IMG/VR virus record: IMGVR_UViG_3300013018_000009
Location: 1-35,353 of that record
Length of the DNA stretch: 35,353 nt
From: a virus
Direction: 5' to 3' (one strand)
Position numbers and translations under genes: made by a program. The notes beneath the pieces were generated by a model. That model was not told the DNA's origin, ran no database searches, and worked only from the letters and a program-made list of their open reading frames with translations. Below are positions 3,261-34,402 of the stretch, one piece after another. The first letter of the stretch is position 1, and each line of letters starts with the position of its first letter.

Positions 3261-3992
3261 CTATAAATATTTCTTAATCTTTTTCATTAACGATTTTCTT
3301 CTTCTAGACACTGTGGCTGGTGACACCCCGACTGCGTCGGCGACTTTCTTTGCTGAGTCTAATTTTGGTTTACCGCCAAAACCAGTTAAATATTCGAAAA
3401 TCAATCTTTCTTCACCGGTTAAAGTCTGATAAACCATCATTAAAGTATCCATTCTTTTTGGGTCCTCAGCCATATCAATGGAAAGTCCAGCTTCCATTAA
3501 ATTAGAACCTGTTAATTCTTTCCTCAATTCTTTTTCCATACGCTGCACTTCGGCTAAATCCCAGTTCATTTCTTCTGCCATTTCTTGAGCATTGGGTTCT
3601 CTACCTTTTCTGATTTCTAAGTCTTCTTTAGTTTTAACATAATTATCTATCTGGGTTGCTCTGTTTTGTGGTATTCTAGCGACATCCTTATAATTTTTAA
3701 CATAATTTCCAACAGATTTTAAATAGTTAGTTACAAATGTCGATAGTTTAGTTCCATAAGAAGGATCATATCTATCTATAGCTTCTTTAAATGCCTTACG
3801 ACCTTCACTTTCGACGGCAACCATTGGTATTCCATAATTTCTATAGTTGTTAGTCTTATTGTGGATAATTCCTTTCATTTCTTGATACAATTCTCTAGCT
3901 TTCTGTTTGGCCATGTATTCGTTGCCGGCATCTTTTGCTCTTTTATATTCTCTCCAAATTTTTAAATCTTTATCGCTTTGATTAATTGGCAT
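3261..3992 (-). CDS. Sigma-70-like RNA polymerase sigma factor inside the baseplate operon
   Basis: I choose the ATG at 3992 (243 aa) because AAGGAGGGTAAC precedes it; the longer frame, from 4031, would overlap the hub gene by 50 bp. Region 2 resembles sigma factors at residues 63-112: FKEAIDRYDPSYGTKLSTF, then a helix and the ARIPQN segment. Region 3-like sequence follows at about 127-160 (GREPNAQEMAEEMNW). Region 4 is at about 183-243, with LTGEERLIFEYLTG and a helix-turn-helix AKKVADAVGVSPATVSRRR. It probably redirects host RNA polymerase to phage promoters, most likely late ones. The setting is unusual, since it is co-transcribed with virion genes. Overlap with the upstream gene is 11 bp. 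A DNA-binding regulator without polymerase contact cannot be excluded. Confidence 0.75.
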   Translation of the reverse strand: MPINQSDKDLKIWREYKRAKDAGNEYMAKQKARELYQEMKGIIHNKTNNYRNYGIPMVAVESEGRKAFKEAIDRYDPSYGTKLSTFVTNYLKSVGNYVKNYKDVARIPQNRATQIDNYVKTKEDLEIRKGREPNAQEMAEEMNWDLAEVQRMEKELRKELTGSNLMEAGLSIDMAEDPKRMDTLMMVYQTLTGEERLIFEYLTGFGGKPKLDSAKKVADAVGVSPATVSRRRKSLMKKIKKYL

Positions 3993-5760: not shown

Positions 5761-6301
5761 CTGCTGTCCTCCTCCTTTTTTTTATCACAAAAAATTTAAA
5801 CGAAACACCAACAACCTTATCATTTTGCGAGTTCTTATCGTAATTCATATTGTACCAGATACCTTTAATTCTTTTATTCGAATATATAATAGTCATTTCC
5901 ATTTCATAATCTAATATAGTGTGCGGTCTGGCAAAGTCGTAGAACTTCTCATAATACTCTAGATCGTTAGTGTTCTCACCTAACATGTTCTCCTTACCGT
6001 CTAAAACGTTAAGCTGATACTGGTGTGTTTCTGCCCCTTCTCCAAAGGCGAAGAACATCGGGTGTTCGTTGGATTCTATAACTTGTGTTCTATCTAAGTT
6101 ATTTTCTGAAATTCTTTGGATATAGAACTTATCTAATTCTATTTCGTAAGGTCCATTTGGTGGAATTTCCCCGTTTTTTAATCTTAATAATTCATCAATA
6201 ATTTTTCTATCAAAATCATTTCTAACATTTTCAATCTTATCATTAGGAATAACTAATTTTATTTTTGCTTTCTCACCTTTATTGTTTGAAGTACCTCTCA
6301 A
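5753..6301 (-). CDS. Small tail/baseplate protein following the tape measure
   Basis: I choose the TTG at 6301 (183 codons) because GAGGTGATC sits at ideal distance before it. The in-frame GTG at 6310 lies inside that ribosome binding site. It is the first gene of a new transcript: promoter 6322-6350 is directly upstream, giving a leader of only about 15 nt. The protein mixes alpha and beta, with FYIQRISENNLDRTQVIES and a later FARPHTILDYEMEMTIIY strand pair, and ends in a basic tail (KKRRRTAVG). It resembles in position the small proteins between tape measure and hub in other contractile phages (baseplate-attached tail-tip or LysM-type proteins), but I see no LysM motif. Function not recognised. 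Confidence 0.55.
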   Translation of the reverse strand: MRGTSNNKGEKAKIKLVIPNDKIENVRNDFDRKIIDELLRLKNGEIPPNGPYEIELDKFYIQRISENNLDRTQVIESNEHPMFFAFGEGAETHQYQLNVLDGKENMLGENTNDLEYYEKFYDFARPHTILDYEMEMTIIYSNKRIKGIWYNMNYDKNSQNDKVVGVSFKFFVIKKRRRTAVG

Positions 6302-15571: not shown

Positions 15572-16168
15572 TTATGCTAATTCTTCAATAATTAATTTTA
15601 TTTTGTCGTCTTTGTTAAGCTTAGAATAACCACTGATTTCCTTTTCTTTGCAAAGGTCATCAAGATCGGTTGAAGTGAAAGCATCATCTAAAGCTTTCTC
15701 ATCTAATTCAACTTCTTGGCCGTCGAATTCTACTGTGTTGATTTTTACTTCTACAGTTGAATCAACCTCATCTGCAGCATCTTCTTCAACCTCATCTTTA
15801 GCAGCTTCTTCTAAAGTTTTATCGGCTGCTTCTTTAGCAGCGTCTTCAATTTCTTTTTCTTCTTCGGTTGGCTCGTCTACTGGTTCTTCATCTTCATTGT
15901 CGACTGGCTCGTCAACCTTTTTTTTCATCGCCAGTTGTTCTGGTCTGAATCTCTTTTGTCTGACTTTTTTGGGTTCTTCAACTTTATCTAAATTAACTAT
16001 CTTAATTTTACCACCTTTTTCAAGCAACTTCAAACCTTCTGTAAGTGGTGCATCGTCAGTGTTGAAAGTTGGAATATTTGATTTATCTTTGTACTTTTCA
16101 ACGTTCTTAATTGTATACCCCTGCCATGCTGTGAAACCAAAACCTAAGTATTCAATCCTGTAATTCAT
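15572..16168 (-). CDS. Acidic head protein with C-terminal Rho-N/HeH-like domain
   Basis: 198 residues in three parts. The N-terminal domain (1-60) is a small alpha/beta fold with YLGFGFTAWQGYTI. A linker (about 64-145) starts with the basic block EEPKKVRQKRFRPEQLA (64-80) and becomes strongly acidic, rich in E, D and A. The C-terminal 35 residues (LDDLCKEKEISGYSKLNKDD) match the short helix-extended-helix pattern of Rho-N/SAP-like domains, which often bind nucleic acid. The basic block is shared with the protease candidate (see repeat entries). It follows the capsid gene and its terminator. A head-tail junction or capsid-associated role is inferred. It lacks the K-x-A motif series. Confidence 0.55.
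   Translation of the reverse strand: MNYRIEYLGFGFTAWQGYTIKNVEKYKDKSNIPTFNTDDAPLTEGLKLLEKGGKIKIVNLDKVEEPKKVRQKRFRPEQLAMKKKVDEPVDNEDEEPVDEPTEEEKEIEDAAKEAADKTLEEAAKDEVEEDAADEVDSTVEVKINTVEFDGQEVELDEKALDDAFTSTDLDDLCKEKEISGYSKLNKDDKIKLIIEELA
15930..15979. repeat. 50-bp direct repeat, copy 1 (in acidic head protein gene)
   Basis: Fifty bases match 19959-20008 with one mismatch (T against C). Both copies are read in the same frame and encode EPKxVRQKRFRPEQLA. Identity at nearly all silent positions points to recent DNA duplication or gene conversion rather than protein-level convergence. Confidence 0.9.
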
Positions 16169-16256: not shown

Positions 16257-17198
16257 TTATGCTGGGTTCCCGTCGTATAATTCTTCAGCACCAGAAAGCA
16301 CCATTTTACCTACAGCTTTGTAGTTACCTAAGTTGAATCCTGTGTAGTACCAGGAGCTCATTTTCAGTAGGTCTTTATCTTTCTGCATCCAGAATGTTGG
16401 ATCTCCCAGAGCAAAAGCACTTCCAAAAAACTGTGGTGAAGTTGCAACGTAAATAACACCTGGTTTAATTACATCACTGTTACTTGTAGTGATGAGTCTT
16501 TTTCCACCAATTTTAAGTTGCTCTACACCGTCTTCAATTACTCTAGTGATTAATCCCCCGACTTCTGTATGATTCCAGCTATAAGCATCGTTTAATGTTG
16601 AACGGTGCATAATAACTGTGTCTGACTTCAATCTTTCTGTATCAATCATATTGAAAAGTTTTGTGAAGTCATCCTTTTGGAAAGTAGAGTTAGTAGATGC
16701 AAGATAGTTACCATTAAGTTTAACAGCACTATTAACGATTTTGAAGAAGTAATCATCTTCCTGCTCCTGCATATCTAATACTACGTTCTGGCGAATGATG
16801 TCAGTGATAGGAATGCGGATGTTCTGCAATTCCATTTCATTTTTTTCAAATACTGGAGAAGCGTACTTTAAAAATGGTATGATGAATTTATCACCAGTTA
16901 TGTATTCTCCGGTAGGTTCACCTCTCATAGTCAGTTTCATAGCATAGGAGTCTGGCTCTCTATCAAGTAACATATACCCTGTATCAGAGTTATCTTGATC
17001 AATCTGATATCTTGGATCCTCAGTTGTTACTCTCTCAAAGCTATCTCCAAAGAAGCGTCTCATGACACCTTCTTCACGGAGTTTCATTCTTACATAGTTA
17101 CTACCAGCAACGCTAGCTTCTTTAATTTTGCTAGGGTCTTCAATAATACTCATAAAGTTTTCGTTGAATTGCTCAACGCTAATGTTATCGAAATTCAT
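16257..17198 (-). CDS. Major capsid protein (HK97 fold)
   Basis: 313 residues with the feel of an HK97-type capsid protein: a helical N-terminal arm (residues 1-28), then FFGDSFERVTTEDPRY, an extended-loop-like section near 70-100, a long central helix region, and a C-terminal strand GNYKAVGKMVLSGAEELYDG typical of the P/A-domain end. KIKEAS at residues 24-29 matches the K-x-A motif found throughout the head block and is the likely processing point, removing 28 residues. The start has AAAAGGAGGAATACATAA before the ATG. It follows the decoration candidate by 27 bp and is followed by a stable hairpin, as expected for the most abundant mRNA. Confidence 0.85.
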   Translation of the reverse strand: MNFDNISVEQFNENFMSIIEDPSKIKEASVAGSNYVRMKLREEGVMRRFFGDSFERVTTEDPRYQIDQDNSDTGYMLLDREPDSYAMKLTMRGEPTGEYITGDKFIIPFLKYASPVFEKNEMELQNIRIPITDIIRQNVVLDMQEQEDDYFFKIVNSAVKLNGNYLASTNSTFQKDDFTKLFNMIDTERLKSDTVIMHRSTLNDAYSWNHTEVGGLITRVIEDGVEQLKIGGKRLITTSNSDVIKPGVIYVATSPQFFGSAFALGDPTFWMQKDKDLLKMSSWYYTGFNLGNYKAVGKMVLSGAEELYDGNPA

Positions 17199-19330: not shown

Positions 19331-21112
19331 TTAGTTAATAATCTTTTTAATAGCAGTTCCGGCCAGCATATCAACACCTCTACCCAATGATTGCATCGGG
19401 GAAGCGGATGTAACAAATATATTTCCAATATTATTTAATGTATCATATTTTTTGTCAATCTCTTTATATCTATTATACAACTGATCGGTATCATTAATCA
19501 AATCTGAAGTAGATTTTTTTGGTGATACCATTCGGGCCGCTTCTTTTGTTATAACATTGTCATAATTCATTTGACTTAAAGCTTTTTTAATGGCAATCCA
19601 ATCATCTTTTGAATTAGTGGCTCCGATACCTAACATAGCAACTAGGTTGGGGTGCTCTTCAAGGAACTTCATTAACTTGGCATCACTGTCAAAACGACCC
19701 GCGATATCCGATGCTAAATAAGCAGCAGGTACTCCTGCAAAAACTCGACCACCTAAATTAGATGCGGTCTTTTCAAATTCCTTACCTGCTCTTTTCATCT
19801 CACCTAAACCTTTGACGGCGCCAACACTACCGGCGGTCATTACAGGTAATAACCACGGGTGATCTTTGATCTTCTTATCAAGACCTTCTGCATTGTAATC
19901 GGGGACTTGATTTAAGTATCTGTTGTATAAAAGACTGCCAGCAATTATTCCAGGTGTTGCCAGTTGTTCTGGTCTGAATCTCTTTTGTCTGACTTCTTTG
20001 GGTTCTTCTGCTGCCATCTTAATGAGTCTTGGATATAAATACTCTTTGATTGCTGACCTCTCTTTAACATAAGGTATTCCAACTTTAAAGACGTCAAAGT
20101 CTAAATCACCAAATAACGGGTTAAACTTTTTGTTGACTTCTCTTTCTGGAATATCTATATTAAGGATAATGTCGTCAAAGTCATCCGGGTTATGCCCCAA
20201 CTTATTTAAATATATCCTTTGGAATTCTTCCGGTTTTAAAATGATACCTAAAGTTAAAAGAGAAGTTAATACATCATCAATAGGTTTTTCAGAATAAAAA
20301 TCCAAAACCTTATCGGAAATGTTTTTTTCTCTTTCTTTGATATCAGAAAAACCCCTCATTAATTTAGCCGCAATCTGTCCGGCATCATTGGAGATAGTTT
20401 CACCTGGGATCTCTTTTTCAATATCCGCTTTCTTTTTAAAGCCATTCAATACAGAAGCGACCTTTTTTAATGACTTAGCGGTCCTGTCCGCACCAATGTA
20501 GACAAAACTGATATCAAAAAATCTCGGTTTCTTATTTATCATATAAACTTTTCTGCCGTCAGGCAATACTTCACCTTTATGATATTTTATATGATCACAG
20601 TAATCGTTGGTAGTCTTGGCGACATTACCACAGATACTGCAAACATCATATGGAACCTTACATCCCATTGAAACATCCCACATCTTATCATTGTCGATGT
20701 CTGATGCAATCTTAGGGGCTTTATCCCTATCAATCCTAACAATAAGTTCTACCCTATGCATTCTCGGATTGAAGTGGGCAAACATTATATCCCCTTTAGA
20801 TTTTTTCGGGTCTTTATTTTTATGATGAGTAAATACATATCCGAATTCTTCGAAGGTCTTATAGTGATCTAATATTTCTTGTTCTTCAAAATAATCAGAG
20901 TTAACATTGTCTCCCCAAATCTCACCACTGCTTACAGCAGAAACTAAAACGTAAACGGAGTCTGGGTCAGACTCGATATTATCTTCAATGTAGTTTTTAA
21001 TCTCATCAGAGATTGTACCAGAAGCCACTTTTTCAAGAGAATCAGAAGGGTCGATCTCCTGTAGTGAAAATTCTTCATCGTTATAATTAAAGTGTATTGT
21101 TTTTTCTATCAA
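19331..21112 (-). CDS. Prohead maturation protease candidate with zinc-finger insert and long C-terminal extension
   Basis: 593 residues, TTG start after AAAGGAGGGGTCAAC. Residues 53-205 look like a herpes/HK97-type prohead serine protease: VLVSAVSSGEIWGDNVNSDY, then THHK with H96/H97 as histidine candidates, VELIVRID, and WDVSMGCKV with S148 as the likely nucleophile (V-S-M-G is the usual context). A cysteine insert follows S148 (C158-x2-C161 and C172-x-H174), probably zinc-binding. The remaining 380 residues are unlike a protease. They carry K-x-A sites (FKKKA, LIKMA, FEKTA, TKEA) and the basic block EEPKEVRQKRFRPEQLA at 369-385. LEKVA30 and LKKVA219 bracket the protease domain, suggesting self-processing. 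Protease identity is by motif and gene order. Confidence 0.65.
   Translation of the reverse strand: MIEKTIHFNYNDEEFSLQEIDPSDSLEKVASGTISDEIKNYIEDNIESDPDSVYVLVSAVSSGEIWGDNVNSDYFEEQEILDHYKTFEEFGYVFTHHKNKDPKKSKGDIMFAHFNPRMHRVELIVRIDRDKAPKIASDIDNDKMWDVSMGCKVPYDVCSICGNVAKTTNDYCDHIKYHKGEVLPDGRKVYMINKKPRFFDISFVYIGADRTAKSLKKVASVLNGFKKKADIEKEIPGETISNDAGQIAAKLMRGFSDIKEREKNISDKVLDFYSEKPIDDVLTSLLTLGIILKPEEFQRIYLNKLGHNPDDFDDIILNIDIPEREVNKKFNPLFGDLDFDVFKVGIPYVKERSAIKEYLYPRLIKMAAEEPKEVRQKRFRPEQLATPGIIAGSLLYNRYLNQVPDYNAEGLDKKIKDHPWLLPVMTAGSVGAVKGLGEMKRAGKEFEKTASNLGGRVFAGVPAAYLASDIAGRFDSDAKLMKFLEEHPNLVAMLGIGATNSKDDWIAIKKALSQMNYDNVITKEAARMVSPKKSTSDLINDTDQLYNRYKEIDKKYDTLNNIGNIFVTSASPMQSLGRGVDMLAGTAIKKIIN
19959..20008. 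repeat. 50-bp direct repeat, copy 2 (in protease candidate gene)
   Basis: Partner of 15930-15979, 49 of 50 bases identical, same reading frame. The flanks diverge at once on both sides, so the duplicated unit is short. Confidence 0.9.
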
Positions 21113-22034: not shown

Positions 22035-22769
22035 CTATTCGATTTCTTCTAATAACTTTTTAGCTTCCTCATCGGACATTCCTTCGATTGTGCTAACTAA
22101 ATTACCTAGATCTTCGTTTTCTTCTTGCTCTTCCAATTCTGAAATTTTACCTTTAAGTTCTGGGGAAGACTGCGCAGCTTCCTTTAAAATCTCGCCAGCT
22201 TCCTCTTCTGTGATGGAATCCAGGAAGTTATTAACTTCTGCTTCTTTAATCATCTCTTCGTTATATACACCAATAGCTTCATCTAACACTTCTGGCTCGA
22301 TACCTGTTACAGAAGCAATCTTTTGTAAGCCGTCAATGTAGAGTTCTTCAGCTGATGCTTGTTTTTCTTTTTTCTTACCTAAAGCTTTATCTGGTCTTAG
22401 TGCGCCCATAACTCCGCCAAAAGCGGCGCCTTGTCCGGCTAATCTTTTTAATTGATTGGCCGAAACATTGCCACCGGTCAACTTAGTACCTAATGCACCT
22501 AATCCAGCTGCACCAGCACCTGTAGAAGCTGCACCAACTAGAGCACCTTTACCTCTTTCTTTTAAAGCTTGTTTCTGTTCATCTGATAATTTGTCAGCGA
22601 GGGCGGCACCTCCGTAACCTAAACCTAATCCAGCAGCTGCAGCAGTGGCTATTTCCTTTTTAGAAAGTTTGCTATTTATGGGGGATCCCCCTCCTGGTAA
22701 AAGACCCGCAACATTCGGGTTAGCAGCAACTTTTTCCATACCTAATTCTGTAATTCTATTAAAATCCAT
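22035..22769 (-). CDS. Tagged internal head protein (15-residue LGMEKVA tag)
   Basis: 244 residues. Residues 1-15 (MDFNRITELGMEKVA) are the shared tag, ending at A15. A glycine-zipper region follows (about 45-125, with AAAAGLGLGYGGAALAD and GAGAAGLGALGTKLTGG). The C-terminal 110 residues are acidic and helical, with KEKQAS, LQKIAS, IKEAE and LKEAA sites. After processing the product would be a short, glycine-zipper peptide, as expected for an internal head protein or a membrane-active ejection protein. Start ATG has AAGGAGGAATACATAA before it. Confidence 0.6.
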   Translation of the reverse strand: MDFNRITELGMEKVAANPNVAGLLPGGGSPINSKLSKKEIATAAAAGLGLGYGGAALADKLSDEQKQALKERGKGALVGAASTGAGAAGLGALGTKLTGGNVSANQLKRLAGQGAAFGGVMGALRPDKALGKKKEKQASAEELYIDGLQKIASVTGIEPEVLDEAIGVYNEEMIKEAEVNNFLDSITEEEAGEILKEAAQSSPELKGKISELEEQEENEDLGNLVSTIEGMSDEEAKKLLEEIE

Positions 22770-22826: not shown

Positions 22827-23468
22827 TTACTCAGTTAAAGCGTCAATGCCAGCTTCAAATAATGCATCAAATGTTTCTTCATCTAATCCATAAGCTGCAG
22901 CTGTTTTTTGCTTTTCTTTTCTCTTTTTATTAGCATAAGCACCAGCAGCACCTAATCCAGCTAATCCAGCGGCACCTAATCCAGCTTTACCTTTGTTGTT
23001 TTTGAGAGCTTGTAGAGCAGAACTACCAGCGGAACCCAAAGCACCTGCACCAGCTTTAGCAGCGTCGCCAGTAAAGCCGGCTACATTTTTAGCACCTCTA
23101 GCAACACTTCTTCCACCTCTTGCTGCCATATTACCTGGATTTTTAAGAGCTTCTTTTAATGCTGCTTTTGTTCCTACACTTTCAGGAGCATTTTTAACAA
23201 AGTCATAAACACCTTTGCCTGCAACGCCAGCACCTGCAGCACCAGCACCTCCACCAATCAATGCAGCTAATTGTTTCTTAGACATTCCGCCATTTTCTTG
23301 CTCTTCAGCAGCCTTTTCTAAAAAGTCATGCAGTTCCATAGCATCTACACCATGTACTCCAGCTACCTTTTCTAAAGAATCAGCATAATCATTAAGACCT
23401 TCCTCATAAGCAACCTTTTCTAAACCTGCTTCTAATACCATATTGATTTCTTCTTGTGTTAAATTCAT
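22827..23468 (-). CDS. Internal head protein, paralogue of the 23489-23938 product
   Basis: 213 residues. N-terminal 55 residues are nearly identical to the next gene upstream: GLEKVA20, SLEKVA36 and FLEKAA54 spaced 16-18 residues apart. The middle (about 68-180) is a long glycine/alanine-rich stretch (IGGGAGAAGAGVAGKG, then GAAGLAGLGAAGAYANKK). The C-terminus repeats the paralogue's ending, FEAGIDALTE against FEKGLEALTE. If all three N-terminal sites are cut, short peptides of about 16 residues are released. Start ATG has AAGGAGGAATACAAA before it. Confidence 0.55.
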   Translation of the reverse strand: MNLTQEEINMVLEAGLEKVAYEEGLNDYADSLEKVAGVHGVDAMELHDFLEKAAEEQENGGMSKKQLAALIGGGAGAAGAGVAGKGVYDFVKNAPESVGTKAALKEALKNPGNMAARGGRSVARGAKNVAGFTGDAAKAGAGALGSAGSSALQALKNNKGKAGLGAAGLAGLGAAGAYANKKRKEKQKTAAAYGLDEETFDALFEAGIDALTE

Positions 23469-23488: not shown

Positions 23489-23938
23489 TTATTCAGTTAA
23501 AGCTTCTAAACCTTTTTCAAATAAATAATTTAAAGTGTTGTCATCGATAGATGCTTCTTTTTTCTTTTTCTTCGGTTGGAGTGCACCTGCCCCCGCCCCT
23601 ATTAAACTCCCTGCAAGAGAGCCACCTGCTCCAGTTATTGAACTTGCACCGATAGCTTCGCCAACATTAAAATCTGAATCTTTTAAAGCTGAAACTAACA
23701 TTGGAACTCCGCCAGCAACTCCGCCAGCAATTCCACCTCTCCGACCCCATTTTTTCCATTTAGGATCTTCAACATCTTCTTCGGCAACCTTCTCTAAAAA
23801 GTCATGTAAATCCACAGCGTCTACACCATGTACCCCAGCAACTTTTTCTAAAGAGTCAGCATAGTCATTAAGTCCTTCTTCATAAGCAATCTTTTCCAAA
23901 CCAGCATTTAAAATCATATCTAATTCTTCCTGAGTCAT
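23489..23938 (-). CDS. Short internal head protein, paralogue of the 22827-23468 product
   Basis: 149 residues with the same build as its neighbour, but a shorter glycine-rich core (about 68-120: GGIAGGVAGGVPMLVSAL, then AGGSLAGSLIGAGAGAL). Sites are GLEKIA18, SLEKVA34, FLEKVA52 and KKKEA129. The duplication is visible in DNA: 23795-23940 matches 23297-23465 with mainly third-base changes. Start ATG has AAAAGGAGGTACAT before it. Function unknown; likely virion-internal. Confidence 0.55.
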   Translation of the reverse strand: MTQEELDMILNAGLEKIAYEEGLNDYADSLEKVAGVHGVDAVDLHDFLEKVAEEDVEDPKWKKWGRRGGIAGGVAGGVPMLVSALKDSDFNVGEAIGASSITGAGGSLAGSLIGAGAGALQPKKKKKEASIDDNTLNYLFEKGLEALTE

Positions 23939-23950
23939 ATGTACCTCCTT

Positions 23951-24793
23951 TTAAGAGTATAATCTAGTTCCGGGGTGCTTTGACTTTTTCACCTCGAAAG
24001 GATTATCTGTTTTTTTATTCTTTATCTTATCATAATGCTTTTTACTTTTGCTTTTGGTCTCGCCTACAAGTGATGCAACTTCCATAGTTTTAAGTGGGTG
24101 TTTAGCCATCTGCAGGGCAATACCAGCAGCTTTTTCTAAACGTTCGTTCAATTCATCTAATCTCGACTTAATTTTACCATAGCTTGCAACCTTTTGCAAA
24201 AACTCATTTTCCTTATCTACAAGAAAATTCACCTCTGATATGTCAGGAATATTTTCTTCTGATGCAGACTTAATTAATTCGTCTGGTGCACCAGCTTTTT
24301 TAATGGAATAAGCAACTATCTTAGGGTTGTTATTTTGCAACTTGGATTTAATCAACTTCACTAAGTGTGGTTTCTTTTCCATTAATTTGACTTCTAGATC
24401 TGATTTTTCCCTCTGCATATTGCCTATCAATGATTTTAGGTCTTCTATATTAATTGTTTCTTTTTCTTCCTCTTCATCATTAATTGTATAATAGGAATCA
24501 TCAAAGCTCAAATCCGGACTTTCAGTTTTCACATCGGTCTCGATTTGGATGCCTTCAATGTTTTTAGGATCAGCAACATCGAACTCTACTGTCTTATCAT
24601 CTGTAGCCTTAAATAACTTAAGGAATACCTTGACATTAGCCTGTTGGGCGATTCTTGCAATTTCTTCATTATTTAGTTCCTCCCGTTTAGCTATTTCCGC
24701 TATTATATCCTCCAAAAGATTTTGATTGTGATCCTCTCCCACTTTTCGAAAATAAGTTTGAACCGCTTCTTTGCTCAAGTTTTGGTAGTTCAT
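23951..24793 (-). CDS. Head-block helical protein with K-x-A sites
   Basis: 280 residues, acidic to basic along its length, helical, without the glycine zipper of its neighbours. An N-terminal site SKEA10 is followed by LQKVAS near residue 203 and LEKAAG near 220, with IKKAG and IKSAS in between. The C-terminal 45 residues are very basic (KSKSKKHYDKIKNKKTDN) and could contact DNA. The start ATG has GGGGGT 6 nt upstream, inside the 84-codon ORF it overlaps by 107 bp. Confidence 0.55.
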   Translation of the reverse strand: MNYQNLSKEAVQTYFRKVGEDHNQNLLEDIIAEIAKREELNNEEIARIAQQANVKVFLKLFKATDDKTVEFDVADPKNIEGIQIETDVKTESPDLSFDDSYYTINDEEEEKETINIEDLKSLIGNMQREKSDLEVKLMEKKPHLVKLIKSKLQNNNPKIVAYSIKKAGAPDELIKSASEENIPDISEVNFLVDKENEFLQKVASYGKIKSRLDELNERLEKAAGIALQMAKHPLKTMEVASLVGETKSKSKKHYDKIKNKKTDNPFEVKKSKHPGTRLYS

Positions 24794-24941
24794 TTTTTAC
24801 CCCCTTTTTGTATTCTGATTTTATTTTAACATTTTTTGGTTTAAATTTGAAATCTGGAAACTTATTTTTAACCTTTTCAATTGGTTTGATTTCATTAGCC
24901 AATTTTTCCATTCCTAAATTTGTGAGATAATCTTTGTTCAT
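24687..24941 (-). CDS. Short tagged head protein overlapping the next gene
   Basis: 84 codons. Residues 1-15 (MNKDYLTNLGMEKLA) are the shared tag with A15, after a strong AAGGAGGTAACC site. The remainder is basic (KNKFPDFKFKPKNVKIK) and then low-complexity serine/glycine where it overlaps the next gene in another frame. The 107-bp overlap is by far the longest in the window. It may be a real tag plus basic peptide, with the last 30 codons accidental; or a frameshift near the A5G5TA6 run may join it to the 280-aa gene. Confidence 0.5.
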   Translation of the reverse strand: MNKDYLTNLGMEKLANEIKPIEKVKNKFPDFKFKPKNVKIKSEYKKGVKNELPKLEQRSGSNLFSKSGRGSQSKSFGGYNSGNS

Positions 24942-24951
24942 GGTTACCTCC

Positions 24952-25635
24952 TTAATACAATAAAGTATTACCTTGTCTTAGGTATCGTTCTCTATCTTCG
25001 GTTTGTAACTTTAACTTATCATGGAGCTTTTGTTTTTTGGTGTATTCCGGTTTTAATTTCTTCTGCAATTTCTTACCTAAACCAGCACCCAATGTTCCAC
25101 CAGAAAGTGCCCCGATTCCAGTTGATAATGGAGTGTTTAGATTTTTTAGTTTGGATAAACCAATACCTGCCAACCCACCAGCTACACCACCACCTAATGT
25201 TGCTCTCGTGGGTAATTTATTATTCCTTTCAACTCTCTTTTTGTATTCTTTATCTTCTGGGGTTTCGTTTAACTTATTTTGTAACTGTTTTAGTTTATTA
25301 TCTTTATCTACAGGGGTCTCATATTTACCATAAGCTCTAGACATTAGATATTTATCTTGACGATGAGGAACATTTTTCAACCAGTCGTCATTGTTGATTT
25401 TTTTATCAACCTCTTTCCACTGAGGAAGAATTTCTTCTTTCCACTTTTTAAAATCCTCTAATGGTTGTTCATCACCCATTTCCTGAACTACCCTTTTTAA
25501 ATGATCTTCTTCATCAGTGATGTCACTTTGATAAGGCCATTTATGGTGATTGGGATTTAATAGTCCTCCAGCTGCCGAACCATTAGCATCCGCTATTTTC
25601 TCCATACCTAAATTCATTACCACTTCTTTTATCAT
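24952..25635 (-). CDS. Tagged internal head protein sharing a module with the ferritin fusion
   Basis: 227 residues. The tag MIKEVVMNLGMEKIA ends at A15, which supports the ATG at 25635. A helical module follows (QPLEDFKKWKEEILPQW near 55-75), then a glycine zipper (GGVAGGLAGIGLSKLKN, about 145-185), and the end DRERYLRQGNTLLY. The helical module, zipper and ending match the C-terminal part of the EncFtn fusion (26251-27300). This makes it the untethered, tagged version of that module. Soluble N-terminal part, membrane-like zipper. Confidence 0.6.
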   Translation of the reverse strand: MIKEVVMNLGMEKIADANGSAAGGLLNPNHHKWPYQSDITDEEDHLKRVVQEMGDEQPLEDFKKWKEEILPQWKEVDKKINNDDWLKNVPHRQDKYLMSRAYGKYETPVDKDNKLKQLQNKLNETPEDKEYKKRVERNNKLPTRATLGGGVAGGLAGIGLSKLKNLNTPLSTGIGALSGGTLGAGLGKKLQKKLKPEYTKKQKLHDKLKLQTEDRERYLRQGNTLLY

Positions 25636-25636
25636 T

Positions 25637-26239
25637 TTAAATTTTCCCCCTTAACTTCTTCCCAATTAAATTACCAACCACAGCTCCACCTAATGTACCT
25701 AATGCTTTCTTTTTCTTAGAATGTTTCTTTTCGTCATCGACTAACTTATTAGATGCAAGATAACCGCCAATACCACCGAGTGCTGTACCAGGAGTGGCTA
25801 TTGATTTGAGGTTTTGTTTTCTTTTATTCCTTTTTAAAGCATCCTGTAATCTTGCTCGCTGCCCATCTCTGGCATAAGAATTAGTTGCAGAACCAGTACC
25901 ATAAGTAGTTTTCTTTTCCGTTCCCGCCGGAATAAACCCGAATAATTTTTTCTTTGTGGTTTTAACACCTTTAGGAAGTTTCTTTTTAGACATCGATGCT
26001 GCTCTGCTGGCAGAATTAACATCAGATTTAACTTTGTTTCTGATGTAATCATTCATCTTTGCCTGCTGACCCGGTTTTAAATTGTTAAGTTCAATGCTTT
26101 TCTCACCGAGTATCTTTCTGACTTGATCTGGATTGTTTTTCTTAAACTTTTTCATGTATTCTTTTTCAGCTCGGTTTAGGGCCAATTTTTCTAAAGAGCC
26201 TTCTTTGATCAACTGCACTAACTTTTCTTTATTTGTCAT
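25637..26239 (-). CDS. Basic internal head protein with LEKLA propeptide
   Basis: 200 residues, strongly basic (runs such as MKKFKKNNPDQVRKI and KKLPKGVKTTKKKLFG). The N-terminus MTNKEKLVQLIKEGSLEKLA ends in the shared motif at A20, slightly longer than the 15-residue tag. The C-terminus has a short glycine zipper (GTALGGIGGYLASNK and GTLGGAVVGNLIGKKL). High lysine content fits DNA binding in the head. Start ATG has AGGAGGGTAAT before it. Family not recognised. Confidence 0.55.
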   Translation of the reverse strand: MTNKEKLVQLIKEGSLEKLALNRAEKEYMKKFKKNNPDQVRKILGEKSIELNNLKPGQQAKMNDYIRNKVKSDVNSASRAASMSKKKLPKGVKTTKKKLFGFIPAGTEKKTTYGTGSATNSYARDGQRARLQDALKRNKRKQNLKSIATPGTALGGIGGYLASNKLVDDEKKHSKKKKALGTLGGAVVGNLIGKKLRGKI

Positions 26240-26250
26240 ATTACCCTCCT

Positions 26251-27300
26251 TTAATAGTCTAAGTTGTGGCCTTGTCTTAAGTATCTTTCTCTGTCATAAA
26301 GGTTATTTTCTCTTTTATTGACTACTCCTTTTTTATTGTACTTCGCTTTATCTTTTACAAATTTTCTAGCGATGGGACTAGTTGCTAATCCTCCAACCAC
26401 TCCCGTTGCTAAACCACCCACGCTACCGTAAAGTGCTCCAGTACCTGCTCCTGCTAAACCCTTTAATATTTTACCGGGGGTAGATTTACCTTTGGAAGAA
26501 CCTACATAGCCACCAATTCCTAAACCGGCTAACGTCCCGAGGCCAGCACCACCTATACCTGTATTACTTATGTATTCACTTGAATGTTGTGATTTGCCTT
26601 CGGGTAACCATTTGTCATTGGGATATTCTTTTCTTTTAGCTCTTTCTAATTTCTTTTTTAATCCTTGGTATTTACCATCACTGCGTACGGGGTTTTTATG
26701 GTTTTCTTTAATATATTCTTGAAGTTTTTGTTGCAGTTTCCTCTGCCTTTCCCCTTCTGCTTGTTCGATTAAACTCTCAAATTTTTGAACCTTCGGATCT
26801 GACAAAACTTCCTTTTGAAAATTATCCCACCTAGGTTTAATAGTGTTTTTCCATTTATTAAATTTATCTAACTCGCCTTGGTTGATATAATCATTTTCTA
26901 ATTCTCGTTTCAACCCAGCTTCTTCGGTTTCTACATCGGTTAAGTATTCAGTTTCACCCCAATGAGTTTGGTGTGCCAACTTTTCTCTCAACGCCGCTTC
27001 CTTTTTAAGACCATCTTCATTATATTCTGCCATCAGTTCTCCATCCTGGTATAGATATTCATCAATCATATCAGACCACACTGGAGAAATTCTTCTAAGG
27101 TATTCAATACCTATTAATGCATGTTCAATTTCTTCGTGAGCATTATGTAAAACAAACTTTCTTACTAAAGGATTATCTGTCGCTGCTGCTCTTTGGTAAT
27201 ACCAATCGACTGCTTCTATTTCTTCGATTATGGATTGTAGTATTCTGTGTATATCCATATCTTCATTTGAAAGTAATTCATGTGGTTCATGGTAATTCAT
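26251..27300 (-). CDS. Encapsulated-ferritin (EncFtn) domain fused to a phage head-protein module
   Basis: 349 residues. Residues 1-95 closely resemble bacterial encapsulated ferritins: YHEPHELL, then EEIEAVDWYYQRA and HNAHEEIEHALIGIEYLRR. From memory of the Rhodospirillum rubrum EncFtn, ligands E32, E62 and H65 correspond here to E27, E57 and H60, with W33/Y34 and entry-site E26/E29 also kept. Such proteins oxidise ferrous iron and work inside encapsulin shells. Residues 99-110 hold KKEA and REKLA sites, which would cut the ferritin domain free. The C-terminal 240 residues (FNKWKNTIKPRW, glycine zipper, DRERYLRQGHNLDY) match the tagged 227-aa protein. Start ATG abuts the helicase stop after AAAGGAGGAAAA. 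The ferritin call is firm; packaging in the head is inference. Confidence 0.88.
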   Translation of the reverse strand: MNYHEPHELLSNEDMDIHRILQSIIEEIEAVDWYYQRAAATDNPLVRKFVLHNAHEEIEHALIGIEYLRRISPVWSDMIDEYLYQDGELMAEYNEDGLKKEAALREKLAHQTHWGETEYLTDVETEEAGLKRELENDYINQGELDKFNKWKNTIKPRWDNFQKEVLSDPKVQKFESLIEQAEGERQRKLQQKLQEYIKENHKNPVRSDGKYQGLKKKLERAKRKEYPNDKWLPEGKSQHSSEYISNTGIGGAGLGTLAGLGIGGYVGSSKGKSTPGKILKGLAGAGTGALYGSVGGLATGVVGGLATSPIARKFVKDKAKYNKKGVVNKRENNLYDRERYLRQGHNLDY

Positions 27301-28824
27301 TTATTTTCCTCCTTTTGCCAACTTCTCCATGCCTAAATCTATCATTGCTTGTTTTTTCATGTTTCCTCCCATTTGATCGTACACCTGTGATTGTAATGCT
27401 TTTTTCTTTTCGGCAACACTGTCTATCCATTCTTCAACAGAGCGGTTGGGTTTTCTAATGGAACTTAAAAACTTCTTCTCGGGTTCTACTGCTAAATACT
27501 TTTTAATATTTACTTTATCGGCTTTCGAGTTTGCTCTGACCCCTCTACCAATCGCCTGTTTGGTTACTTCTGGGTTCCAGTTAGGGTCAAAAATAAACTC
27601 TTTATCTACATTAGGTAATGATATTCCTTCCTTACCTGTAGGTGATGTAACGAAAGCTTTTGTTTTATTTTTCTTAAAGTTTTCAATCTGTTCATCTTTA
27701 TCTTTCTTTCTCATACCACCGGATATTCTAGATGACGAAACACCTTTTGATTTCAAGGCATCTTGGATAATATCTGCTCCATGCTGGTTATAGTTAGAAT
27801 AAATCATAGACCCAAATTCGCTGTCGTCGTCTTTTAAATCTTCTAATAACCTCTGGGCTTTGGCCGATATTTCGTGACCTTTATCTCCTTTAAGTATAGC
27901 ACCTGGATTGTTTGATGCAACTCTGGCATTTGCTATTGAGCCAAAGAAAGACACGCTATCTCTCTTATCTGGAACAATGTCTCTTTTAACAGCCTTCCTT
28001 ACTGGCCCGGGCAAATCATTCCAGGCATACTTGTAGGCTTTCATTTGTTCTTTAGTCATTGGTACCCTAACTTTTTCTTCTTCAACCTCTGGTAAATCTT
28101 GATCTCCTCGTTCATAATCGAAATAATTTTGGAGATATTCCCTAACTTCATCATCGGGGTCAAATCTTTCTCCTACTGTTTGTTTCTTACCTAAACCTAT
28201 AAAACTTAAAGGACCGAACTTTTTAGTTTCCGGTTTAACATACTTTTTATTAAATTCCGTTTGGTTGTATTTATCTTCACCTTCGATTAAATTAATCAAA
28301 GATGCAACATCACCGGGAGCATTATTCATTGGGGATGCCGTTAAGAAAGCTTTATTTTCCATATTAGGCGACACTTCTTTAATAGCTTTATAAAGGTTTG
28401 TGTTTTGATTTCTAGCGTTGTGTGCCTCATCTACTACCATTGAATTGGAATTTGCCGAATACTTCTCAGGATCTTTTGAAAACAAAGAGTTAGACACTAT
28501 TACATAATCGGCGTTGGGGTCAACTTCTTCACTTCCGGAGTCGATAACTTGAACCGAACTGTCAGTAAATTTATTTATTCCTTCTTTTTCAAAATTTGTT
28601 TTTAAACTTGCTGGAACAACAACTAAAGTCTGTCCAGGTGATTTTTCTTTTAATTTTTCCATAGCGGCTATACTGGTTAAGGTTTTACCTGTACCAGTGC
28701 CATGGGCCACAACCAAAGAATTGTTATCTAAAAGTTTATTGACGGCTCGTTTTTGATAATCTCTTAAATTGACATCATCTTTTAATGCTGCTTCTTTTAA
28801 TAACTTCTTTAATACCTTCTTCAT
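27301..28824 (-). CDS. SNF2/superfamily 2 DNA helicase-translocase with a C-terminal head tag
   Basis: 507 residues from the ATG at 28824 (GGAGGTG 5 nt upstream, stop of amylase overlapping as TGATG). Walker A GTGTGKT is at about 42-48, DEAH at 132-135, FLTASPMNN follows as motif III, and the second RecA-like domain ends with SPTGKEGISLPNVD and QAIGRGVRANS (motifs V and VI). This is a SNF2-like ATP-dependent DNA translocase. The N-terminus KKLLKEAALKDD carries a K-x-A site. The last 19 residues are MKKQAMIDLGMEKLAKGGK, a complete copy of the 15-residue tag plus KGGK. It is likely packaged in the head and may act on phage DNA during or after ejection; that is inference. Tight coupling with both neighbours. 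Confidence 0.85.
   Translation of the reverse strand: MKKVLKKLLKEAALKDDVNLRDYQKRAVNKLLDNNSLVVAHGTGTGKTLTSIAAMEKLKEKSPGQTLVVVPASLKTNFEKEGINKFTDSSVQVIDSGSEEVDPNADYVIVSNSLFSKDPEKYSANSNSMVVDEAHNARNQNTNLYKAIKEVSPNMENKAFLTASPMNNAPGDVASLINLIEGEDKYNQTEFNKKYVKPETKKFGPLSFIGLGKKQTVGERFDPDDEVREYLQNYFDYERGDQDLPEVEEEKVRVPMTKEQMKAYKYAWNDLPGPVRKAVKRDIVPDKRDSVSFFGSIANARVASNNPGAILKGDKGHEISAKAQRLLEDLKDDDSEFGSMIYSNYNQHGADIIQDALKSKGVSSSRISGGMRKKDKDEQIENFKKNKTKAFVTSPTGKEGISLPNVDKEFIFDPNWNPEVTKQAIGRGVRANSKADKVNIKKYLAVEPEKKFLSSIRKPNRSVEEWIDSVAEKKKALQSQVYDQMGGNMKKQAMIDLGMEKLAKGGK
27316..27360 (-). other. Tag-coding segment with its own internal start and ribosome binding site
   Basis: Within the helicase gene, the tag codons (27360-27316) begin with ATG and are preceded by GGGAGGAAAC (27370-27361), a good ribosome binding site at proper distance. 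Reading from here gives a 19-residue peptide ending at the helicase stop. The next codon after that stop is the ATG of the ferritin fusion, in the same frame. So one TAA separates tag from ferritin. Confidence 0.6.
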
Positions 28825-29885
28825 CAATTCACCTCCAGCTTATAGGATTGTCTTTCAACAGTTACTTCATTGAATGTTCTTTCATCTAAACTATTATTAA
28901 TGTATAAAGTATAATTACCTCTTTCGGCGACATATAAGTCGTTGTCAGTGTGTGCGACAACAGGATATTCTTCGGCAAAATATTTTCTAGGTTTAATCAA
29001 TTCATCTATTTTATCTTTGAGTTCGTATTCAAAGTAATCTTCCCAGAAGACTACCGCTGGCTCTTTCTGGAACAAGATATAAGCATACGCCAGTTCTTTA
29101 TTATTGATTATGGGTTCACTTCTTTCGACGTCATGGTTGGAAACAAAATTAACCCTATTAGAGCTGGTCCCTAATGCTTTCATTGAAGATTTTGGATTCA
29201 TACACATTTCCTTCAATTTATAAAACAATGGAAAATTAAACAACGGTAGATCGATGTAATCAGTTAACGCCTCTAGTAAAACATCGTTTCCACTCCAGTA
29301 TTCCCCAACCATAAAATTATTGAATGAGTTAAAAAAATCTTTAACGAAATCCCAACGCATTTCCTTTAAATTGTCTAACCTAAAATTATCAAAACCGATA
29401 TCCTTTAACCAAGTGGCCCATTCGATAAGACCTTTTTTCATATATTCATTGTCATTATAATAACAAATAGTTTCACCAAAAGAACTCCTGGTGTTGCACC
29501 CTCCACAATCTCTGCAGAAATGTTTATAATCTTTTTGAAACAACGAGCTGTCAAACTTAGTGTATGTATCTTTATCTAAACTTGGGTTATATTCTTTTTT
29601 ACCTCCAAGCATATGCCCCATCACAAGATCAGCCATAACGTTGATTCCTTCATAGTGGAATTTATCAATTAAATCTACCAGTTCTTCTTTGGTGCCAAAT
29701 TTAGAATCGAGATTATAATGGTCCTTTATATCATAGCCCATCGAGTCATCACCGGCCATCCCCCTTGAAGGTGGAGGTAACCAGATATCAGTAAACCCTT
29801 TTTCGGCGATCGCGCCAGTTAAAAATGATAATTCATTGTACCAGTCAGAAGGGCAATCCCAATAAAATCCCTGTAGTATTAGCAT
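28824..29885 (-). CDS. GH13 alpha-amylase-family glycoside hydrolase
   Basis: 353 residues from the ATG at 29885 (a GTG at 29888 overlaps the previous stop; no clear ribosome binding site, so coupled). The order of GH13 blocks is intact: LILQGFYWDCPSDWYNEL at the start, DIWLPPPSRGMAG, region I ADLVMGH (G replaces the usual N), region II FRLDN with nucleophile D171, region III MVGEYW with acid E195, region IV VSNHD with D252, and a short beta C-domain (LYVAERGNYTLYINNS). It hydrolyses alpha-1,4-glucan bonds in glycogen or starch. No signal peptide, so it acts inside the cell or the virion. A cysteine group (C124, C127, C130, C141) sits in the small B-domain. No head tag. A metabolic gene within a phage head operon is unusual. 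Confidence 0.9.
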   Translation of the reverse strand: MLILQGFYWDCPSDWYNELSFLTGAIAEKGFTDIWLPPPSRGMAGDDSMGYDIKDHYNLDSKFGTKEELVDLIDKFHYEGINVMADLVMGHMLGGKKEYNPSLDKDTYTKFDSSLFQKDYKHFCRDCGGCNTRSSFGETICYYNDNEYMKKGLIEWATWLKDIGFDNFRLDNLKEMRWDFVKDFFNSFNNFMVGEYWSGNDVLLEALTDYIDLPLFNFPLFYKLKEMCMNPKSSMKALGTSSNRVNFVSNHDVERSEPIINNKELAYAYILFQKEPAVVFWEDYFEYELKDKIDELIKPRKYFAEEYPVVAHTDNDLYVAERGNYTLYINNSLDERTFNEVTVERQSYKLEVN

Positions 29886-29887
29886 CA

Positions 29888-31339
29888 CTAACCACGATCG
29901 TTTTCATATTCTCTGATTATTCGCTTTAATTTTTCTGTCATCTCATCATCTCTCCTTGGAGAAAATGTAGTTATAACCGCTTCGTTTTCTCCCTTTAAGG
30001 CGACATTGGCTTTCTTCATTCTTCTTGCTAATTCACCAATAGTTCCTCCGCCAGCTGCACCTAATAAAGTGTTTCTCGTTTTGTTATCTTTATTTTTTGT
30101 GAGTTTGTTGGCGGCAAAACCTCCAATACCCGCACCTGCTAATCCAGGGGCATATCTTTTAGCATCTGATTTAAAATTATGTTTCCGGGTTCCGAATTCT
30201 CCGGTGCGTTTGTTTTTCTTTAGGTCGATATAGTCAGCTGCTAGTTTTTCGATGGTGGCCTCTTTTTCTTTACCTCTAACTTTATCTCCTAATGTAGCTC
30301 CTAAAGCCCCGCCAACCATTAAACCGCTACCACCTAATGTAACATTACTCATTAAGTGGTCTTTTTTTCGACTTTTCATTAATTTTTTTATACTCTTTTC
30401 AACTTCTTTTTTATATTCAGGGTGATTTAATTCTTTTGCTTGTTGGCTCATTCCTTTAAAAGTATTAAAATAAGGTCTCATTGTTTTATCGTATTTTTGG
30501 TTTAATTTCTTAGCTCCTACTAACCCTAATCCTGCACCGGCTGCTGCACCAACCCCTAAACCAATTTTGGTAGAATTGTCTTTAACCCACTTTTTAGTTT
30601 TGTCTAATTTTGATTCTTCTTCAGCAATCTTGTTCATGCCAAGTTGTACAAAGGCATTCTTTTCTTTGTTTTTAATTTCATCGCCCGCAGCAGCTCCGAA
30701 TAAACCGCCTGCACCTGCTCCGAGACCACCCAAGACGGCATAATTTTTTAAGTCATCTTTTTTCCTTTTTTTAATCATATCTTTCATATAACCCTCAGTC
30801 TTTTTGTTTAATTTTTGACCTTCTCTTCCTAAATTGTTGCCTATATCTCTCAATTTATCATAGGCTTCAAAATAAGGTTTATCGAGATTAGTCAGTGTTT
30901 TGTTTAATTTCTTAGCTCCCGCTAACCCTAATCCTGCACCGGCTGCTGCACCAACCCCTAAACCAATTTTGGTAGAATTGTCTTTAACCCACTTTTTGGT
31001 TTTGTCTAGTCTTGATTCTTCTTCAGCAATTTTGTTCATGCCAAGTTGTACAAAGGCGTTCTTTTCTTTTGGTTTCTTTAAAGCTCCGACACCGGCACCT
31101 AAAATTCCGCCACCGGCACTACCTATAGCACCACCCATAATTCCCGAATGGACCATTTTATTTAACATAAATGGGTCATCAGTATCTGAATTTATTGCCG
31201 ACAATAAAGCAGCGGCAGGTGCTAAACTTTTCATCCCTACATCAGAACCTTTCAAACCATATTCTACCGCATTTTGCAATCTGGGGTGCGACTTTCTTTC
31301 CGCCTCTTTTATCAAAGTCTTCAATATTTCTTTTTTCAT
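29888..31339 (-). CDS. Polyprotein-like head protein with tandem tags and glycine zippers
   Basis: 483 residues. The N-terminus MKKEILKTLIKEA ends in a K-x-A site at 13. Two copies of a 56-residue unit follow, each opening with the tag KEKNAFVQLGMNKIA, then KKWVKDNSTKIGLGVGAAAG and a glycine zipper. Linkers are lysine-rich helices. A further double site, KEKEAT/IEKLAAD, begins the last third (YAPGLAGAGIGGFAANKL). If every site is cut, the protein yields four or so zipper-containing fragments. Membrane-active ejection proteins or internal core proteins are plausible roles. Start ATG has ATAGGAGGATTTAAA; it follows the terminase by 11 bp. Confidence 0.6.
   Translation of the reverse strand: MKKEILKTLIKEAERKSHPRLQNAVEYGLKGSDVGMKSLAPAAALLSAINSDTDDPFMLNKMVHSGIMGGAIGSAGGGILGAGVGALKKPKEKNAFVQLGMNKIAEEESRLDKTKKWVKDNSTKIGLGVGAAAGAGLGLAGAKKLNKTLTNLDKPYFEAYDKLRDIGNNLGREGQKLNKKTEGYMKDMIKKRKKDDLKNYAVLGGLGAGAGGLFGAAAGDEIKNKEKNAFVQLGMNKIAEEESKLDKTKKWVKDNSTKIGLGVGAAAGAGLGLVGAKKLNQKYDKTMRPYFNTFKGMSQQAKELNHPEYKKEVEKSIKKLMKSRKKDHLMSNVTLGGSGLMVGGALGATLGDKVRGKEKEATIEKLAADYIDLKKNKRTGEFGTRKHNFKSDAKRYAPGLAGAGIGGFAANKLTKNKDNKTRNTLLGAAGGGTIGELARRMKKANVALKGENEAVITTFSPRRDDEMTEKLKRIIREYENDRG
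30500..30667. repeat. 168-bp tandem coding repeat, copy 2
   Basis: Nearly identical to 30902-31069, offset 402 bp (134 codons), in frame. It encodes a tag plus helix plus glycine zipper. Most differences are silent or conservative (R to K, A to V), so the duplication is fairly recent. Confidence 0.9.
30902..31069. repeat. 168-bp tandem coding repeat, copy 1
   Basis: Partner of 30500-30667. Includes the tag codons 31069-31025 and the sequence encoding GLGVGAAAGAGLGL. Confidence 0.9.
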
Positions 31340-33302: not shown

Positions 33303-33557
33303 ATGCTAACCAAAGAAGAAATTGAAAACTTATTATTAATTAACAATGAAGATTTAGATGAAGAAGTCTCAAAAGAAACACGAGAGTTGATAGATAAAGT
33401 AGAAAAGGAATTGGAAGAAAGAGGTTGTGATGATATTTATCATGACCTCGTTACTGAGTTATTAATCAAGACACAAGACGAAGCCTATAAGATAGGTCTT
33501 CGTGATGGCAGTCATTTCGAGGAAATCCAAACAAAATTAAAAGGAGATGTTAAATAA
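33303..33557 (+). CDS. Small acidic helical protein, unknown
   Basis: 84 residues, predicted all-helical, highly acidic (MLTKEEIENLLLINNEDLDE, later ETRELIDKVEKELEERG). AGGAGGATTTAAAA precedes the ATG; the stop overlaps the next start (TAATG). A single cysteine and no metal motif. It lies between a membrane protein and an unknown 281-aa protein, in an operon unlike the structural one. Not recognised. Confidence 0.6.
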   Translation: MLTKEEIENLLLINNEDLDEEVSKETRELIDKVEKELEERGCDDIYHDLVTELLIKTQDEAYKIGLRDGSHFEEIQTKLKGDVK

Positions 33558-34402
33558 TGAAATTAAATAAAAAAACTGCTGACTTTGTATGGGGCGAAGG
33601 TAAATTGGCTTGGATTTGTTCTAAAAAAGATAACTCCTGGTGGAAAAAAGGAACACCGTTGGAAGAAGAAAATTATGTTGTTATTAAAGATGGCGATGAT
33701 ATTATTTTTGAGACAATTAAAGATTTCAGGGCAAACTACGAAGAAGCGTTCGCAGCCGATGAAAAACATGTAGTAGAATATGGAGATGTTATTATTGAGC
33801 ACACTTTGTGTAAAGAGTTCCACGACCCATTATTTAAAGCGATAGATATAATAGAGGGGGCTTTCACTGTTGAAGCTTCTCCTGGAAAACTGGCAGAAAG
33901 GTTATACAAAATAGAATTCCCCAGAGGTGTAGCTACTTTGGAAATCGGAAATCAAGTTATCCTAATTAATTCATTTGAAGATGGATTAGACAGGGTAACT
34001 TTATTTAATCACCTAATAAATCAAGCTGGTATGAAGTATAACCTGTCAGCTGATGAGATTGGTAGATACTCATTAGTGCCACCGTTGAAATGGGAAGTAA
34101 TGGGATTCGATGTTGAGATCAGACCAGTGTCCGATGAGATTTATAAAGTGTATCAAGGTCTGAAAGAAGATATTGAAAAAGCAGCAGATGAATTTGTAAA
34201 CAAAGACTTAGACTTCAGTGTTGATATCTGTTCGGAATTCATGGGTATTAACACTGTCGACCTTTCCACCAGAGAAGGTCGGGTTGGCATTATCTATAAC
34301 CTATTGTCAATGATATATGGACCTAAAGGTAGTCGGGATAAGATTATGAATTTGGATAAGAAATATAATTTTGAAGGCAAATTTGAATTAAAGGAGGATT
34401 AA
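33557..34402 (+). CDS. Unknown phage protein (281 aa)
   Basis: Soluble mixed alpha/beta protein with an N-terminal beta section (FVWGEGKLAWICSKKDNSWW), a central alpha/beta section (FPRGVATLEIGNQVILINSF) and a helical C-terminus (GRVGIIYNLLSMIYGPKGS). Start overlaps the previous stop (TAATG) with AAAAGGAGATG upstream. Not a recognisable enzyme; no nucleotide-binding motif. Its place in the short plus-strand operon suggests an early or regulatory function, which is only an inference. Confidence 0.6.
   Translation: MKLNKKTADFVWGEGKLAWICSKKDNSWWKKGTPLEEENYVVIKDGDDIIFETIKDFRANYEEAFAADEKHVVEYGDVIIEHTLCKEFHDPLFKAIDIIEGAFTVEASPGKLAERLYKIEFPRGVATLEIGNQVILINSFEDGLDRVTLFNHLINQAGMKYNLSADEIGRYSLVPPLKWEVMGFDVEIRPVSDEIYKVYQGLKEDIEKAADEFVNKDLDFSVDICSEFMGINTVDLSTREGRVGIIYNLLSMIYGPKGSRDKIMNLDKKYNFEGKFELKED

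Follow-up and report, generated by a model that had tools for sequence, protein, structure and literature searches.

Why does a viral helicase gene end with a short peptide tag that has its own ribosome binding site and ATG, one stop codon away from a ferritin gene in the same frame? The locus lies in the IMG/VR virus record IMGVR_UViG_3300013018_000009, whose positions 1 to 35,353 were analysed as a whole and are called the window here. A sequence-only reading had described this layout, and had explained it either as a relic of tag shuffling or as a deliberate way to deliver the tag to either neighbour. Every element that it described was found and located on the minus strand. It is likely that the tag is a T4-like capsid-targeting and maturation peptide with a cleavage code of its own, that the helicase tail derives from a fused gene start, and that the stop codon and the shared frame are incidental.

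The helicase-ferritin junction

The features of the junction are listed below, where a slash marks a predicted cleavage.

28822-28824, minus: probable helicase start, ATG
28789..28827, minus: helicase N-terminal tag, MMKKVLKKLLKEA/
27301..28827, minus: SNF2-type helicase ORF, by translation and Pfam (PF00176, 8.7e-22; PF00271, 2.4e-17)
27361..27370, minus: binding site GGGAGGAAAC, 5′ of the internal tag ATG, -10.2 kcal/mol
27358-27360, minus: internal tag ATG
27304..27360, minus: 19-codon tail, MKKQA/MIDLGMEKLA/KGGK, with two predicted cleavage motifs (A494 and A504)
27301..27303, minus: helicase stop codon TAA (in both relatives, a TGA overlapping the ferritin ATG)
27298-27300, minus: ferritin ATG, in frame with the helicase
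26251..27300, minus: EncFtn-like ferritin domain (PF22277, 2.5e-28; PDB EncFtn 5n5f, 2.6e-22), tag linker, and a module labelled glycine-zipper-like from its sequence and its likeness to 24952-25635
26974..27003, minus: internal tag linker of the ferritin protein, KEA/ALREKLA/, residues 100-109, a module-swap point

The names helicase and ferritin given in the sequence-only reading were correct, and can be sharpened to SNF2-type and EncFtn-like. The helicase has a tag-like sequence at both termini. Its C-terminal end reads ...SVEEWIDSVAEKKKALQSQVYDQMGGN-MKKQAMIDLGMEKLAKGGK-TAA, that is, ...MGGN-MKKQAMIDLGMEKLAKGGK, and the ferritin ATG directly abuts the TAA. The N-terminal one (MKKVLKKLLKEA) is absent from the sequence-only reading. 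As that reading had proposed, the KGGK codons (27304-27315) also hold the ferritin ribosome binding site, a GGAGG with a duplex energy of -11.8 kcal/mol.

Is the internal start signal real? Against the 16S tail, the binding site before the tag ATG ranks third among the 284 in-frame internal ATGs of the window and equals the sites of two real gene starts. Thus, the start signal is real as sequence and differs from typical chance. Initiation there would make a free tag peptide of 19 or 20 residues, for example an assembly modulator or competitor, and T4 gp21 has a functional internal start according to the available text of PMC9026906. The site and the ATG are identical in two relatives of the locus, but this conservation says little since their helicases are 99% identical to that of the window. 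The site is absent from all distant helicases aligned, the free peptide would itself hold two cleavage motifs, and the site is accounted for by the capture of a gene start, described below. A free tag peptide is an unlikely product. The sequence-only reading had counted as evidence against its proposal any homologues without the internal ATG and its binding site; this holds for the nine distant helicases aligned and not for the two close ones.

The strongest of the 284 signals belongs to an internal start at 3992 in a sigma-factor-like gene (named by eye) of the tail region (3261-4031, minus), and 3992 is likely the true start of that gene.

The direct adjacency of stop and ATG is ordinary and not special. 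A second pair with gap 0 lies within the window (13675/13674), and 18 of the 567 close neighbouring gene pairs at 45 representative loci have the same spacing.

Two IMG/VR contigs span the junction, and both keep the helicase tail. In both of them the helicase ends ...MGGNMNKQAMIDLGMEKLAKGGIR, its TGA overlaps the ferritin ATG (gap -4), the ferritin lies in another frame, and a GGAGG is retained a few bases upstream of the ferritin ATG. Thus, the TAA is not conserved, conserved read-through is excluded, and no tag-ferritin product can arise in these relatives. Programmed read-through of the TAA, which would yield helicase-tag-ferritin or tag-ferritin fusions, fits the in-frame TAA-ATG of the window, but this frame is lost in two of two relatives, gap-0 pairs are not rare, and the ferritin is provided with its own strong binding site and, behind the ferritin domain, its own tag. 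Read-through is therefore hardly credible, and frame-linked delivery was rejected together with it. Of the two explanations in the sequence-only reading, delivery to either neighbour fell and tag shuffling stood. The stop codon and the shared frame are very likely incidental; the in-frame stop before the ferritin is probably an accident of spacing rather than a switch.

The junction is known from three genomes only, the window and the two relatives. Queries with the ferritin, helicase, terminase, and amylase revealed no further relatives of the junction in viral_contigs, and no close one was found in genome_contigs. Another record, IMGVR_UViG_3300028034_000004, has a protease 100% identical to that of the window, and its locus stops short of the junction. 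An alpha-amylase-like gene (28824-29888, minus; PF00128, 5e-15) separates the helicase from a tagged glycine-zipper gene; it has no K-x-A motif and is 97-99% kept in both relatives. Two head-region genes (23951-24793 and 24687-24941, minus) overlap by 107 bases in different frames, and the same overlap exists in both relatives.

The K-x-A motif and the head protease

Tag peptides such as MKYFEKIA and MKKQAMIDLGMEKLA end in K-x-A, and the same motif is found in the head genes of the window.

16257..17198, minus: major capsid protein (phrog_2522; HK97-fold match, 1.1e-9), KEA/ at residues 26-28
19331..21112, minus: head maturation protease (phrog_18299, 1.5e-11), K-x-A at A30 and A219 flanking the folded domain
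22035..22769, minus: tagged head-region protein, MDFNRITELGMEKVA/
24687..24941, minus: tagged small protein, MNKDYLTNLGMEKLA/
24952..25635, minus: tagged protein with a weak glycine-zipper match, MIKEVVMNLGMEKIA/
25637..26239, minus: tagged glycine-zipper protein, MTNKEKLVQLIKEGSLEKLA/
29888..31339, minus: tagged glycine-zipper protein of several modules, linkers KNA/FVQLGMNKIA/ (twice) and KEA/TIEKLA/, swap points A105 and A239

Is the motif a trait of the whole clade? Homologous proteases (89) were reduced to 45 representatives at 70% identity, and the 707 neighbouring proteins within 9 kb were counted. Their first 30 residues contain 337 occurrences of K-x-A, while 136.6 (sd 11.7) are expected in shuffles, a 2.5-fold excess. 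Among nine control motifs, only K..A exceeds 1.2 (1.41-fold); the reversed A-x-K (0.91), R-x-A, K-x-S, and the others are near 1. The fraction of proteins with an N-terminal K-x-A declines from 0.88 next to the protease to 0.14-0.23 at the tail end, and the density of the motif, up to 3.0 per 100 residues beside the protease, is at the background level on the tail side. Outside the head block, one gene (33557-34402) gave a K-x-A p of 0.04, uncorrected for 36 tests. The gene calls of the relatives are mechanical longest ORFs, and some starts are wrong (e.g., in L054, L064, and L084).

The 1539 sites have L, M, or F preferred at P5, E at P4, and S, E, or A at P1′, with Ser at P1′ in 22%. When the window was left out of the training, the resulting profile scored the helicase sites 13, 494 (+0.72), and 504 (+2.66) positively and the four sites in the helicase core negatively. 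Lys at P1′, as in the last site of the tail, is unfavoured (2.9% of the sites). These results suggest that the tags belong to a system used by a large group of phages, to judge from their sequences. Few of 20 tagged proteins from distant members could be named by Pfam; apart from weak matches, these were helicases, one DNA ligase, and one DUF5662. In one distant locus (L085, IMGVR_UViG_3300027917_000021), runs of neighbouring genes begin with the identical eight residues MKYFEKxA; its 156-kb record has eight forward matches to the DNA pattern of a start followed by MKYFEKxA (control, 0), one of which lies about 22 kb from the rest.

The protease itself carries the motif. K-x-A is present within the first 110 residues of all 45 protease representatives, and K28 and A30 are invariant in 31 of 31 aligned sequences (the window and 30 representatives from other contigs; the alignment took in 31 of the 45). 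In the structural model (pLDDT 84), the fold covers residues 36-219 and is bounded by the K-x-A sites at 30 and 219. The best PDB match of the model in Foldseek is T4 gp21 (5jbl), with a probability of 0.92 and an E-value of only 0.025; the predicted fold is that of gp21. A capsid protein was identified for 35 of the 45 representatives, and every one of these 35 has K-x-A at residues 19-39, shortly upstream of a conserved basic stretch, F[IV]RxKLRE. The capsid model gave 354 matches with E-values up to 0.001, and the best 50 of the 354 are viral capsids and encapsulins, which points to an HK97 fold. It is very likely that K-x-A is the site of the protease.

Two other stretches are shared among head-region genes of the window. 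The genes at 15572-16168 and 19331-21112 (minus) have a near-identical 17-residue stretch in common, EEPK[KE]VRQKRFRPEQLA, possibly another shared docking peptide. The genes at 22827-23468 and 23489-23938 (minus) have similar helix-like C-terminal stretches (...FDALFEAGIDALTE and ...LNYLFEKGLEALTE) just behind a K-x-A site, which resemble a C-terminal tag.

The nearest known system is that of T4, in which the internal head proteins IPI, IPII, IPIII, and Alt carry a short N-terminal targeting peptide and gp21 is the protease. The T4 cleavage motif is LxE or IxE. The window resembles T4 in having a shared peptide on otherwise unrelated proteins, and in the gp21-like fold of the protease; a head-internal location is known for the Arash homologues only. 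The K-x-A of the peptide, which is also conserved in the protease and in the capsid protein, would be the counterpart of the T4 cleavage motif. In T4 the peptide is 10-19 residues long, and Alt is processed at both ends (PMC9026906, available text), as is proposed here for the helicase. On the other hand, the motif and the phage clade differ, the cargo of the window includes an SNF2 helicase and an EncFtn ferritin, and the tags double as internal linkers and swap points. The prohead protease gp245 of SPN3US, with its A-X-E sites, likewise uses a three-residue P3-x-P1 code with several sites per propeptide. It prefers Ser at P1′ (PMC10052503, available text), and this preference is matched in the clade of the window. 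In contrast, the clade has Lys at P3 and Ala at P1, and the tags that were read span about 8-30 residues, compared with 20-254 for SPN3US propeptides.

Salmonella phage Arash and Vibrio phages D69, D181, and D148 have a homologous capsid protein, protease, and terminase, and K-x-A lies at the same places in Arash and D69 as in the window. Phage G was considered as support and set aside: its protease homologue (gp19) and several head proteins have K-x-A near the start, and its capsid protein does not. Literature searches, which covered few subscription papers, listed none that I recognised as an account of a head code based on K-x-A or of an EncFtn in a phage.

Tags at module joints and in the ferritin protein

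Tags are found not only at protein ends. In the window and its relatives, double-site linkers (KNA/FVQLGMNKIA/, KEA/TIEKLA/, and KEA/ALREKLA/) have the same format as the helicase end, KQA/MIDLGMEKLA/. In the 29888-31339 protein, homology begins at Ala105 and at Ala239 against Ala13 of its relative. In the ferritin protein, it begins at Arg105, just before EKLA, against residue 16 of a gene in L001, whose own start is that of another gene of the window. All three joints that were read thus have their breakpoints at the motif, where the modules have been exchanged. Tags at module joints, swaps at the tag between close relatives, and the absence of the tail from distant helicases support the relic of tag shuffling.

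The ferritin protein has 349 residues, with the ferritin domain followed by the tag-like linker and a glycine-rich module. Residues 1-97 match encapsulated ferritin structures (5n5f, 2.6e-22; 5da5, 1.6e-19), and Glu27, Tyr34, Glu57, and His60 are equivalent to the iron-site residues Glu32, Tyr39, Glu62, and His65 of EncFtn, as named in the available text of PMC5012862. The same text describes the C-termini as extending from the outer circumference of the EncFtn ring, and a tag behind the ferritin domain therefore suits such a ring.

Is the tag an encapsulin-type targeting peptide, which would dock cargo in the peptide cleft of the capsid protein? The neighbour is a true EncFtn with iron-site residues, its address is likewise C-terminal to the ferritin domain, and LGMEKL of the tail resembles both the Thermotoga maritima peptide (PMC7565527) and the consensus L(F)XV(I)XXL(I) (PMC11202242). 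However, of 377 first N-terminal K-x-A tags across the clade, only the window's own fits the pattern, fewer than the 3.2 that column shuffles give, and the match of the capsid model to phage capsids is no worse than that to encapsulins. Unlike the ferritins of encapsulin systems, that of the window lies among phage head genes, is fused to a further module, and has the K-x-A tag of the clade as its address instead of an encapsulin peptide. Encapsulin peptides are not known to be cut off. The local likeness is striking and fails clade-wide, and this explanation was rejected as very improbable.

Origin and use of the helicase tail

Distant helicases occur in other contigs of the clade. Among full-length distant records, 16 of 17 begin with a K-x-A tag of their own, the exception being Arash; the count excludes the close relatives and L095, L097, and L099, which are truncated at the beginning of their contigs, and contains two duplicate pairs. 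The C-terminal tail is absent from all nine distant helicases aligned. Five of the nine (L068, L085, Arash, L095, and L097) terminate within a few residues of the point where the tail starts, and four have unrelated long C-terminal ends. In L068 and L085, the helicase stop forms a TAATG overlap with the start of the next gene, whose product begins with MKYFEKIA or MKYFEKQA, and this tagged gene appears to sit in the slot now filled by the tail. Thus, the simplest history is that the start of a following gene was fused to the helicase end.

According to the preferred explanation, a short peptide ending in [L/M/F]-E-K-x-A would recruit a protein into the assembling head core, and the gp21-like protease would cut after Ala and free the docked protein; I infer this docking and cutting from the T4 case. 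The helicase end may have received, by in-frame fusion, the beginning of a tagged gene downstream of it, binding site and ATG included, and the cargo of that gene may have been lost or replaced by the ferritin gene. The ferritin would be translated on its own, from the binding site that lies within the KGG codons, and carries a separate tag after the ferritin domain.

Is the tail still used? Since two K-x-A sites flank it as they flank the other linkers, it can serve the helicase as a further tag, one that is C-terminal and removable. Alternatively, it may be a dead scar of an accidental fusion, unused because the helicase is already tagged at the N-terminus. Its absence from the distant helicases and the unfavoured residue at P1′ of the last site are consistent with a scar. 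On the other hand, the tail has the double-site format of the internal linkers, and T4 Alt is also processed at both ends. In codons 490-504, one replacement (K491N) and two silent changes (L498 and G499) separate the window from L001, with the core MIDLGMEKLA unchanged, although these numbers are tiny. A scar is possible but rather doubtful, and I lean towards a tail that is still used.

Not every packaged helicase needs a tag. In Arash, the helicase lacks an initial K-x-A and is untagged at both ends, yet virion preparations contain it in abundance (100% coverage, 1148 spectra; PMC10585845, available text). Arash Gp223 is rich in K-x-A, and its 100% coverage in the same text indicates that its pieces are not lost. 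The coverage of the Arash capsid protein (86.64%; PMC10585845, available text) is compatible with N-terminal removal and is no proof of it; the coverage table is not decisive as a test of cleavage.

More tentatively, the phages with K-x-A, a large clade of tailed phages, may have a head-import code of their own, a peptide ending in EKxA read by a gp21-like protease, with tags serving as mobile, start-ready cassettes and recombination joints, and the lineage of the window may have captured an EncFtn ferritin that makes the head a transient iron compartment. If so, the cassette would consist of a binding site, an ATG, a tag, and a cut site and would fuse to gene ends as well as to gene starts, and the virion head would be a transient encapsulin-like compartment bringing ferritin and helicase to the next host. 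The odd junction also gives a testable rule for these phages: any of their proteins whose N-terminus is a short hydrophobic stretch ending in EKxA should be packaged in the head and trimmed. Such a rule would give a virion location to many unnamed genes of environmental phages and a short address with which cargo could be loaded into phage heads, and it would account for the way in which an encapsulin ferritin could function inside a virus particle.

No relative of the ferritin protein was found in the phage collection. A different viral contig (L130) has an EncFtn-like protein (5698-6069) with AKKLA close to its start, and the gene lies near a sigma-like gene and a possible terminase piece, both named by eye.
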